This document shows, piece by piece, positions 9,943 through 36,532 of a stretch of DNA of 64,000 bases. The translations under genes and the position numbers were made by a program. A model generated the notes under the pieces. That model was given only the letters and a program-made list of their open reading frames with translations, was not told the origin of the DNA and ran no database searches. Source of the stretch: Saliniramus fredricksonii (GTDB lineage: Bacteria; Pseudomonadota; Alphaproteobacteria; Rhizobiales; Beijerinckiaceae); contig NZ_FMBM01000001.1 of the NCBI RefSeq assembly GCF_900094735.1, positions 372,001 through 436,000 on the forward strand, written 5' to 3'. Each line of letters starts with the position of its first letter. Within the stretch, counting starts at the first letter, position 1.

Positions 9943-11499
9943 TCATTCCGCCGCGTGCTGGGCGTGCAGCCCCTCGCCGCGCGCCATCAGCTTGTTGAGC
10001 GCCGAGAGATAGGCCTTGGCCGAGGCGACGAGCGTATCGGGATCGGCGCCGCGCCCGGTCACCGAGCGCCCATTGGCATGCAGCCGCACCGAGACCTCCG
10101 CCTGCGCATCGGTCCCCTCGGTCACGGCGTGGACCTGATAGAGCTCGAGCACCGCCTCATGCGGGACCAGGGTGCTGATGGCGTTGAACACGGCATCGAC
10201 CGGTCCGTTGCCATCAGCCTCGTCGGCCCGGATATCGCCGCCGATATCGAGCTTGAGCAGCGCCCGCTGCGGTCCGCGCGTGCCGGCGATCACGGTCAGC
10301 GAGACGACGCGGATGCGCTCATGCGCCTCGGCCAGCTTCTCGTCGACCAGCGCCTCGAGATCCTCGTCATAGATGGTCTTCTTGCGGTCGGTCAGCGCCT
10401 TGAAGCGCACGAACACGTCCTGAAACTGGTTGTCGGACAGTTCGTAGCCCATCTCCTCCAGCTTGTTCTTCAGGGCGGCACGGCCGGAATGCTTGCCGAG
10501 CACCAGCGAGGTCTTGGAGACGCCCACCGATTCCGGGGTCATGATCTCGTAGGTCTGGGTATGCTTGAGCATGCCGTCCTGGTGGATGCCGCTCTCATGC
10601 GCAAACGCGTTGCGCCCGACGATGGCCTTGTTGTACTGCACCGGAAAGGAGGTCGCGTGCGCCACCGCTTTGGAGGCCTTGGTCAGCATCTCGGTGACGA
10701 TGCCGGTCTCGTAGGGGAAGGCGTCATTGCGGGTCCTGATCGCCATCACGATCTCTTCAAGCGCCGCATTGCCGGCGCGTTCCCCGATACCGTTGATGGT
10801 GCATTCGATCTGGCGCGCGCCGCCGGCGACGCCGGCCAGGGAATTCGCCACAGCCATCCCGAGATCGTTGTGGCAATGCACCGAGAAGACCGCCTTGTCG
10901 GAATTCGGCACGTTCTCGCGCACCTTGACGAACAGGTCGCGATACTCTTCCGGCGTCGTATAGCCCACCGTATCGGGGATGTTGATCGTGGTGGCGCCGG
11001 CCTTGATCGCGGCCTCGACGCAGCGGCAGAGGAAGTCGAATTCCGTGCGCGTGCCGTCCTCTGCCGACCATTCAACGTCGTCAACATGGTTGCGCGCCCG
11101 GGTGACCGACGAGATCACGTGCTCCAGCACGGCTTCCGGCTCGAGCTGCAGCTTGAACTTCATATGTACCGGCGAGGTGGAGAGAAAGGTATGGATACGC
11201 GGGCGCGCAGCGTGGCGCACCGCTTCCGCCGCCCGGTCGATATCCTTGTGCGCGGCGCGTGAGAGACCCGCCACGGTGGCGTTCTTCACGAGCGATGCGA
11301 TCTTCGAGACCGCCTCGAAATCCCCGATCGAGGCGATCGGGAAACCGGCTTCGATGATGTCGACGCCCATCGTGTCGAGCAATTCGGCGACTTCGAGCTT
11401 TTCGCCCAGCGTCATCGTCGCGCCGGGGCATTGCTCGCCGTCGCGCAGGGTGGTGTCGAAAATCAAGACGCGGTCTTTGGCGGTGTTCTGATCGGCCAT
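9943..11499 (-). CDS. leuA: 2-isopropylmalate synthase
   Basis: This 518-residue enzyme condenses acetyl-CoA with 2-oxoisovalerate, the first committed step of leucine synthesis. The N-terminal HMGL barrel holds the metal and substrate motif [13 protein letters not shown], plus [13 protein letters not shown] and [11 protein letters not shown]. The C-terminal half, from about residue 390, is the LeuA allosteric domain for leucine feedback inhibition. ATG 11499 follows AAGGAA; the frame stays open further but without family similarity. Upstream lies a leucine-rich leader peptide, so expression is probably controlled by attenuation as well. Confidence 0.95.
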
Positions 11500-11610
11500 G
11501 TCATCGTTCCTTGGTCGTATTGCCCGTGATTCTGCTTGTGCGGGCGAAATCCTTCGGTGGCGGAGCATCACCTGTCGCGGGATGCGTCACGTCACGGTGG
11601 CAATCGGTCT

Positions 11611-11652
11611 CCCCTGAAGGCCAAGGCGCAAAGCCCTGCCGGCCCTCAGGGG
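11611..11652 (-). promoter_or_regulatory. strong RNA hairpin overlapping the leuA leader-peptide stop
   Basis: On the leuA-sense strand CCCCTGAGGGCC (11652-11641) pairs with GGCCTTCAGGGG (11622-11611): twelve base pairs with one G-U. The 5' arm contains the stop codon of the leader peptide. A ribosome at that stop would block the stem. There is no U-run after it, so it may act as a pause, a Rho-dependent element or an anti-antiterminator rather than a classical terminator. Confidence 0.6.
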
Positions 11653-11780
11653 CTGATAAGGAGAAGCAGGCCGGGAAGAAGCGCGTCGGCGGCGAGCGGC
11701 GCGCAGGCGGGGGCGCGGACAGGCACTGCAATGCAGGCGCTGCCTTCGATCGTCTCGCGCTGTGAGCCGGCCATCGCCAA
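11646..11780 (-). CDS. leucine-rich leader peptide of leuA
   Basis: A 44-codon ORF starts with TTG at 11780 (GGAGAC just upstream) or ATG at 11774, and ends 146 bp before leuA. Its last residues are ALLPGLLLLISP, six leucines in eight residues. Four of the six leucine codons are CTT, otherwise uncommon in this GC-rich DNA. The stop lies in the 5' arm of a 12-bp hairpin. This is the layout of ribosome-mediated attenuation for leucine biosynthesis, in which scarce leucyl-tRNA stalls the ribosome and changes RNA folding. It is too small for homology alone; position and codon pattern are the evidence. Confidence 0.65.
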   Translation of the reverse strand: MAMAGSQRETIEGSACIAVPVRAPACAPLAADALLPGLLLLISP

Positions 11781-11834
11781 GGCTCGTCTCCCGTTTCTCG
11801 TCGCATCCGGATCATGCCGGAATATTACTGCTCC

Positions 11835-11863
11835 TCTGTAAACCTTTCGTGAGCGCGGCTCAA
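11835..11863 (-). promoter_or_regulatory. possible leuA promoter
   Basis: On the reverse strand TTGAGC (11863-11858) and TACAGA (11840-11835) are spaced 17 bp. Transcription would begin near 11828, about 48 bases before the leader-peptide start. The -10 match is weak. The rest of the gap to 12025 shows no other feature. Confidence 0.35.
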
Positions 11864-12024: not shown

Positions 12025-12855
12025 ATGAGTGCCGAGGTCAGAAGCTGGTTCGGTCCTGCCGTCGCCAATGTCGCGACCCATCCCGGCGTGCGGGCCCTCG
12101 TCGCAAAATGGCTCCAGATCCGCGCCGAGCGCGAGCCGCTGTTGAGCGACTTCTGGAACAGGGCCGATCAGCAGATGATGGATTCGTCGATGCTGTTCAT
12201 GAAGCTCGACGATGATTACACCTATCTGCATCACGGGCGCTATCTGTGCGAACGGATCGGCTTCTCCATGCAGGGCCTGTCGCTGCGCCATCTGCGCACC
12301 CGGGTGCGCAACCAGCTGATCGCGCTCTATGACCGGGCGACGAGCGAGTTCGATCTCGTCTATTTCCAGTCCTTTGCCGATTTCGCCCAGGACGTCGTGC
12401 TCTGGGGCCGGTTATGCCTGCCCTTGCGCATGAAGGAGGGTGATGATCGCGTCCTGCTGCTGGTCTTCTGCCACATGATCGAGGACAAGGCCTCGCTGTT
12501 CAGGACGCTGTTCACGCATTCGCGTTACGGCATCATCGTCACCTGGCCGATCTACAATGCCAAGCGTCAGATCGACGATGCCTGGATCATCAACCAGAAT
12601 GCGGCGGCCATGCCGATTACCGGGGTTCAGGATCACACCGAGGACGACCTGATGCTGCGGGCCGGGCCGGTTTTCTCCGATGATGCGCTCTGGCGCCATT
12701 TCGCGCGCGGCGTGCAAAACGGCATGGTGTCGGCCGAGATCAGCGTCAGCACCTCCGCAAGCCGCTATATCGCCTCGGGCGAGCTGATCGACGATTACCT
12801 CGTCTTTCATTTCGCCGAACAGAAGCCCTCGGATGAGAGCTTCGTGATCGGGTGA
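12025..12855 (+). CDS. stand-alone PAS-domain protein
   Basis: A 276-residue soluble protein. Residues about 25-180 fit a PAS_5-like pattern (LVAKWLQIRAEREPLLSDFW, then a DDDYTYLHHGRY strand). A second PAS-like segment begins near 190 (DDAWIINQNAAAMPITG). No kinase, GGDEF, EAL or HTH output domain follows, and the protein ends cleanly at FVIG, so any signal must pass to another protein. No upstream partner is visible. The family call is moderate; the function is unknown. Confidence 0.65.
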   Translation: MSAEVRSWFGPAVANVATHPGVRALVAKWLQIRAEREPLLSDFWNRADQQMMDSSMLFMKLDDDYTYLHHGRYLCERIGFSMQGLSLRHLRTRVRNQLIALYDRATSEFDLVYFQSFADFAQDVVLWGRLCLPLRMKEGDDRVLLLVFCHMIEDKASLFRTLFTHSRYGIIVTWPIYNAKRQIDDAWIINQNAAAMPITGVQDHTEDDLMLRAGPVFSDDALWRHFARGVQNGMVSAEISVSTSASRYIASGELIDDYLVFHFAEQKPSDESFVIG

Positions 12856-18133: not shown

Positions 18134-18227
18134 GGGAGGTTGGCGAGGGACGTTTCACTCGCCAACCGGGTCAGGTCCGGAAGGAAGCAGCCCTAACGAG
18201 ACCGAGCGGGTTCTCGTCCAACCTCCC
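18134..18227 (+). ncRNA. ffs: 4.5S RNA, small bacterial signal recognition particle RNA
   Basis: The universally conserved SRP tip loop GGTCAGGTCCGGAAGGAAGC is followed by AGCCCTAA. The ends close as a perfect 10-bp stem, GGGAGGTTGG (18134-18143) with CCAACCTCCC (18218-18227). The RNA binds Ffh to deliver membrane and secreted proteins to SecYEG. It lies directly before dnaX, a common alphaproteobacterial order. Confidence 0.95.
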
Positions 18228-18304
18228 ACCTGTTTCCCCGGCGGATTCGGTGGCCGAAACGGTTTCGGCTTGAGCCCGGGCCTCGCCTCGTGTCCAATAG
18301 GCGC

Positions 18305-36251: not shown

Positions 36252-36269
36252 GTTCGATGGCTCATGATC

Positions 36270-36466
36270 CTCGCGGGAGAGATCGGTCCGTCCGACGCCG
36301 AAGGCGCAACCGCCCCGGAAACGCTCAGGCAAAAGGACCGCGAGGAGCTGGCACTCTGGAAAGAGGCAGGTCGAGACAGGCCTGCCCACCGAAGGGCGTA
36401 ACTCGGCAGTTTCGAAACCTGGTTTCGAGGGTTCCGAGGAAATCTCTCAGGTTACGGGACAGAGGG
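36270..36466 (+). promoter_or_regulatory. tandem glycine riboswitch
   Basis: Two glycine aptamers in series. Aptamer 1 (about 36272-36342) carries GGGAGAG, GCCGAAGGCGCAA and CTCAGGCAAAAGGACCG. Aptamer 2 (about 36353-36466) carries CTCTGGAAAGAGGC, ACCGAAGGGCGTAA and CTCAGGTTACGGGACAGAG. These are the standard conserved blocks of the class. Such switches turn on gcv genes when glycine is abundant. gcvT begins 67 bases after the second aptamer. Confidence 0.95.
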
Positions 36467-36532
36467 GGCGCATGTGATGTCGGCGAAAGCCGGCGCCGCA
36501 CGCCCCGCGACACCGAATCTGACGAGGACGCC

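Follow-up and report, generated by a model that had tools for sequence, protein, structure and literature searches.

The window analysed here is a 64,000-nt stretch of the Saliniramus fredricksonii genome in which leuA, the putative controlled gene, occupies positions 9943 to 11499 of the minus strand and encodes a bacterial-type 2-isopropylmalate synthase (NF002087, 867 bits against a cut-off of 729; TIGR00973, 706 bits; LeuA_dimer domain). This enzyme catalyzes the first step committed to leucine synthesis. Upstream of leuA and on the same strand, a leader ORF (11646 to 11780) ends in ALLPGLLLLISP followed by a UGA stop codon (11648-11646), as claimed in an earlier note made from the letters of this DNA, and the 146 bp that the note gave between this stop and the leuA ATG at 11499 was right. 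Its 5' limit of 11863 was without support. The most likely leader start is the TTG at 11780, located 7 nt after a putative Shine-Dalgarno (SD) sequence, GGGAG (11788 to 11792, minus strand), that is conserved in an alignment of close relatives; the ATG at 11774 is the alternative. An N-terminal A-G-S-[QH] is common to the aligned close relatives, and a C-terminal LLLLxxP-stop to relatives. The SD of leuA itself, AAGGA (11508 to 11512, minus strand), lies 8 nt before its ATG. Among other features of the window, a 276-aa ORF divergent from leuA (12025-12855, plus strand) had no Pfam or NCBIfam match, and an ordinary small SRP RNA gene (18134-18230, plus strand, 62.9 bits) and an ordinary tandem glycine riboswitch (36264-36466, plus strand, 76.9 and 35.9 bits), the latter before a gcvT-like gene near 36500, were also found.

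leuA loci were gathered from relatives and from named genomes, the nearest named one being Salinarimonas rosea. A leader consisting of a Leu run, two residues, Pro (Leu in some loci) and a stop codon was present at 78 of 110 loci, no pairing being required for this count, and loci without such a leader were mostly SAR11. Clustered Leu codons in a candidate leader ORF were kept upstream of leuA in 50 of 51 LeuA-bearing relatives. Across 60 relatives, the element and this type of LeuA occurred together in 50, neither occurred in nine, this LeuA occurred alone in one (a 1.4-Mb genome) and the element never occurred alone; each of the 50 genomes had a single strong match to the element, always on the leuA strand and 59 to 355 nt before the point at which the leuA match begins. 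Searched with a covariance model of the element, the window genome gave one strong match (1.1e-15, the next being 2.5); at the level of the order 171 of 199 genomes matched, and at that of the class 98 of 289 did so under strict filters, the strong class-wide matches sitting before leuA. When genomes sampled from the phylum were searched, 92 of 95 matches fell inside Alphaproteobacteria; those outside the class (G373, G383 and G655) were marginal (E 0.005-0.009), lacked an adjoining leuA and were rejected, as was a weak in-class match (G246) that also lacked an adjoining leuA and was considered a false positive.

The element also preceded a distantly related, yeast-type LeuA in three genomes (L258, 101-167; L259, 1718-1784 on the minus strand; L260, 101-167), two of these enzymes being confirmed as NF002991. 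They are approximately 25% identical to the window LeuA, and, as judged from these sequences, the leader appears to be retained in front of two very different LeuA enzymes. One sampled family (f24), probably Rhizobiaceae, was without the element; a single f24 genome was present in the LeuA sample, and it had only distant LeuA types.

The conserved core of the element is a 42-nt hairpin (11611 to 11652, minus strand) that holds the leader UGA in its 5' arm. Its predicted fold of -30.9 kcal/mol (z -3.3) was equalled in stability by none of 200 shuffles, and it comprises an inner helix besides the 12-bp stem noticed earlier, which was confirmed as CCCCUGAGGGCC/GGCCUUCAGGGG (11652-11641 with 11622-11611). 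In an alignment of 69 sequences, 10 of 14 hairpin pairs had pairing-preserving changes on both sides and the covariation score was 0.290 vs. 0.148 in shuffles; because the sequences had been selected for seven paired arm positions, the result is partly circular for those seven pairs of the lower stem, and the inner pairs and the set found by peptide alone are not touched by this circularity. In that peptide-only set, 75 of 78 loci satisfied the seven-pair rule and the remaining three nearly did so. The stop codon itself covaried with the opposite arm (UGA/UCA, UAG/CUA-type and UAA/UUG), as in the arm pairs CCCCTGA/TCAGGGG, CCCCTAG/CTAGGGG and CCTCTGA/TCAGAGG, and in CCCTTAA/TTGAGGG before one of the yeast-type enzymes (L260). 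The earlier note had proposed comparing the upstream regions of relatives, and in that comparison both the Leu cluster and the two hairpin arms were conserved. The AGGGGA of the hairpin was considered as a second SD and rejected, since no conserved start codon follows it.

Immediately upstream of the hairpin lies the Leu-codon run, CTT CTT CCC GGC CTG CTT CTC CTT (11658 to 11681, minus strand), a candidate leucine sensor and, by complementarity, a candidate anti-SD. Four of its six Leu codons are CTT, in agreement with the initial count. Among 98 nonredundant loci, the last Leu codon was CTT in 96 and CTA in two, and the Leu codons before it varied mainly at the third base. CTT accounted for 54% of Leu codons in the last nine codons of the leader (43% once the fixed last Leu codon was excluded) vs. 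4% in leuA, and for 12 of 255 Leu codons in window genes; TTG made up 11% of Leu codons in leuA vs. 0.2% in the leader. Such a bias would be expected of a sensor decoded by a minor Leu tRNA, and it also suits an anti-SD role, because CUU pairs with AAG. At 18 of the 98 loci, Rhodospirillales-like ones such as L074, L107, L129 and L143, the codon preceding the last CTT was CGA (Arg), giving a conserved CGACTTA; downstream pairing was rejected as its cause, there being in general no cis partner. A +1 frameshift at CTTA was likewise rejected by inspection, since the variable loop length leaves no conserved second frame.

Two other readings were considered. A Leu-rich nascent chain ending in LxxP-stop might arrest in the ribosome and sense leucine or a related metabolite there, rather than tRNA charging, and the fixed length of the L-x-x-P-stop end in nearly all loci would fit such a peptide. 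However, the two x positions are occupied by a wide range of residues (S/I/T/R at the first, R/C/S/G at the second), and Rhodobacterales have Leu (CTC) in place of Pro, a substitution mirrored in the opposite hairpin arm; RNA pairing therefore accounts for the conservation of L-x-x-P-stop, and we consider arrest of this kind very unlikely. Alternatively, the RNA might bind a protein or ligand, leaving the leader ORF without a regulatory role, a scheme that has been put forward for the LEU element of Actinobacteria. In keeping with this idea, CTTANNNGCCCCTGA is conserved beyond the needs of the peptide, yet the strong CTT bias and the third-base changes among the remaining Leu codons point to decoding, and a binding RNA is, if anything, slightly the more improbable of the two. 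Two positions within CTTANNNGCCCC (window positions 11652-11660, minus strand) hardly change across all loci, namely the A that follows the last CTT and the G that precedes CCCC; the hairpin does not explain them and the amino acids encoded there vary.

We compared pairing energies of cognate and swapped partners. The Leu run (32 nt) paired with its own leuA SD region at -15.18 kcal/mol, compared with -13.48 kcal/mol for GC-matched swaps (z -6.3), a result replicated in 84 loci fetched afterwards (-15.37 vs. -13.45; z -6.4). As controls, pairing of the Leu run with coding sequence gave z -1.1 in the first set and z -0.6 in the 84 held-out loci, and pairing of the hairpin arms with the SD gave z 1.2 and -1.3. 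The Leu run also beat swaps against the first 28 nt past the hairpin (z -3.2; held-out z -3.5), and its complementarity signal is therefore not exclusive to the SD; the two target regions overlap because the linkers are short. Across 180 loci, uninterrupted helices of at least 8 bp that included the GG of the SD occurred in 26.7% of cognate vs. 12.2% of swapped pairs, the swapped-pair maximum being 17.8% in 300 permutations. These helices fell mainly in two registers of the Leu run, and approximately three quarters of loci had no uninterrupted helix of this length at the SD. Compensated pairs of Leu run and SD include CUCCUUAGCC/GGCUAAGGA, CUUCUUAGCA/UGCUAAGGAA and UCCUUAUCC/GGAUAAGGA.

A stem between the Leu-codon run and the leuA SD, which is a feature of the actinobacterial LEU element, was found at the level of the family, and it was weak in the window species. 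There, the leuA SD and start codon (AAGGAACGAUGACAUGGCC; 11494 to 11512, minus strand) have a predicted bulged pairing with GGCCUGCUUCUCCUU (11672-11658), which appears in both the minimum free energy (MFE) and centroid structures of the window leader and likewise in a sister species; in S. rosea the pairing is also bulged (CUGCUCCUUAUCGG/CCGAUAGGAAGCAG). The longest uninterrupted helix of this kind in the window species has 5 bp, and pairing in this species was weaker than with shuffled flanks (z +1.7). The window's own case for SD pairing depends on the bulged MFE helix. With a ribosome placed on the last Leu codon, predicted accessibility of the window SD rose from 0.33 to 0.74. Across 98 loci, stalling raised the mean predicted accessibility modestly, from 0.40 to 0.48-0.52, and seven of these loci moved the opposite way by more than 0.1.

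We also considered mechanisms acting on transcription. No U-run or terminator-like site was detected in the window leader, which bears out the earlier observation that a U-run is absent after the hairpin, and TTTTT occurred in only 5 of 98 linkers. A classical transcription attenuator would pass through alternative helices to a terminator, as in the leu and trp operons of Escherichia coli, which this leader resembles in its ORF, in the clustering of regulatory codons and in a hairpin that holds the stop codon. A duplex between the inner hairpin and the linker was slightly better than with swapped partners (p 0.002), a point in favor of alternative helices. In contrast, antiterminator pairing between the 3' hairpin arm and the linker was rejected, as cognate partners paired no better than swapped ones (p 0.20), U-runs are absent from the window leader and few in relatives, and the window element had no Rfam match, either at gathering thresholds or at E values up to 10, including to the Leu leader RF00512. 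Classical attenuation is accordingly very improbable here.

Rho-dependent termination is the main rival to translational attenuation. When leucine is plentiful, the ribosome would leave the leader, an untranslated C-rich stretch downstream of the leader would recruit Rho, and transcription would end before leuA; stalling of a ribosome at the Leu codons would block Rho or its loading. The lack of an intrinsic terminator suits this scheme, and for other leaders that lack terminators, Rho-dependent control of the Tna type has been suggested (PMC1262725). Linkers average 30% C, 27% G and 15% T, and the window linker has 36 C in 111 nt, although C barely exceeds G overall. Some linkers are only 41-45 nt, which is short for both Rho loading and termination before leuA, and Rho action gives no reason for the Leu run of each species to match its own leuA SD region. 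We consider Rho-dependent control unlikely, though less so than the other alternatives discussed above.

Comparison and computation show the leader ORF, the Leu run, its codon bias, the hairpin, the linkage to leuA and the excess of cognate complementarity. Together they make it probable that the element controls leuA by translational attenuation in response to leucine, and that this control is common in Alphaproteobacteria. In such an attenuator, leuA would most likely be switched on at low leucine by freeing of its ribosome-binding site, not through the ending of transcription. Ribosomes would translate the short leader ORF, which ends in Leu codons that are mostly the rare CUU. When charged tRNA-Leu is plentiful, they would finish and leave, the stop-codon hairpin would re-form, and the exposed pyrimidine-rich Leu run would pair with the leuA SD region, repressing leuA translation. 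Under a shortage of charged tRNA-Leu, a ribosome would stall within the Leu run and cover it, leaving the SD free and leuA to be made. We infer the stalling, the repression, the direction of the response and the task of the hairpin.

The hairpin is probably a compact spacer. It starts 5 nt after the last CUU and may perhaps act as a brake at the last Leu codons, which is conceivable because, with the last CUU in the A site, the hairpin base would lie near the mRNA entrance of the ribosome. Against translational attenuation, the model does not require conservation as strong as that seen for the hairpin, for the A following the last CTT and for the G preceding CCCC. The earlier proposal of ribosome-mediated control by leucine supply fits the conserved Leu run, the rare-codon bias, the hairpin and the position before leuA, and stands as a prediction. 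Its suggestion that the output might act through a second structure was supported in part, in that the apparent structure is the helix between Leu run and SD, which would act on translation initiation, and the stop-codon hairpin is not terminator-like. On a more speculative reading, which we regard as doubtful, a single codon run would serve as leucine sensor and anti-SD at once, set at a constant 5 nt from a downstream stop-codon hairpin that acts as a mechanical brake and sharpens sensing at the last CUU, in an element that is portable across distant LeuA types and belongs to a family absent from Rfam.

Among known systems, the nearest in design is the LEU element found before leuA in Actinobacteria (Seliverstov et al. 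2005, PMC1262725), which likewise has a Leu-codon leader before leuA, a run that pairs with the leuA SD, no terminator and a compact structure enclosed by the stem of Leu run and SD. The LEU element contains a conserved pseudoknot; the conserved core found in the alphaproteobacterial element is a single stop-codon hairpin, with the slight excess pairing of inner hairpin and linker noted above, and this element occurs in another phylum and mostly before another LeuA type. The same study doubts the action of the LEU Leu codons, citing Streptomyces mutation data (PMC1262725). The Enterobacteria Leu operon leader (RF00512) and classical attenuators share a leader peptide with clustered Leu before leucine biosynthesis genes, but here there is no U-run terminator and no Rfam match, and the output is probably translation. 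In erm-type translational attenuators, a ribosome stalled on the leader ORF uncovers the SD of the next gene. Such release of the SD by a stalled ribosome is described in PMC5118997. The erm signal is a drug-dependent arrest, whereas that of the leuA leader is probably a shortage of charged tRNA-Leu, with the codons themselves forming the anti-SD. Attenuators in alphaproteobacterial ilv leaders were reportedly described by Vitreschak and colleagues in 2004. The Caulobacter ilv leader is described as a transcription attenuator with Ile and Val codons (PMC4117421). Leaders of this type belong to the same bacterial class and also precede genes for branched-chain amino acids, but differ from the leuA leader in the gene concerned and in using transcription attenuation with Ile/Val codons.

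No description of an alphaproteobacterial leuA leader was found in the literature searched, and Lopatovskaya et al. 2010 may contain an earlier prediction. leuA is not mentioned by Corbino et al. 2005, a silence that fits their Agrobacterium-centred search because family f24 is without the element. The leader described here is likely a leucine-synthesis switch for a large and much-studied class, including Bradyrhizobium, Methylobacterium and Rhodobacterales. Its occurrence suggests that a second phylum evolved or retained the design based on Leu codons and the SD that was proposed in 2005 for Actinobacteria. If so, the doubtful mechanism of the LEU element would become testable in easier hosts.
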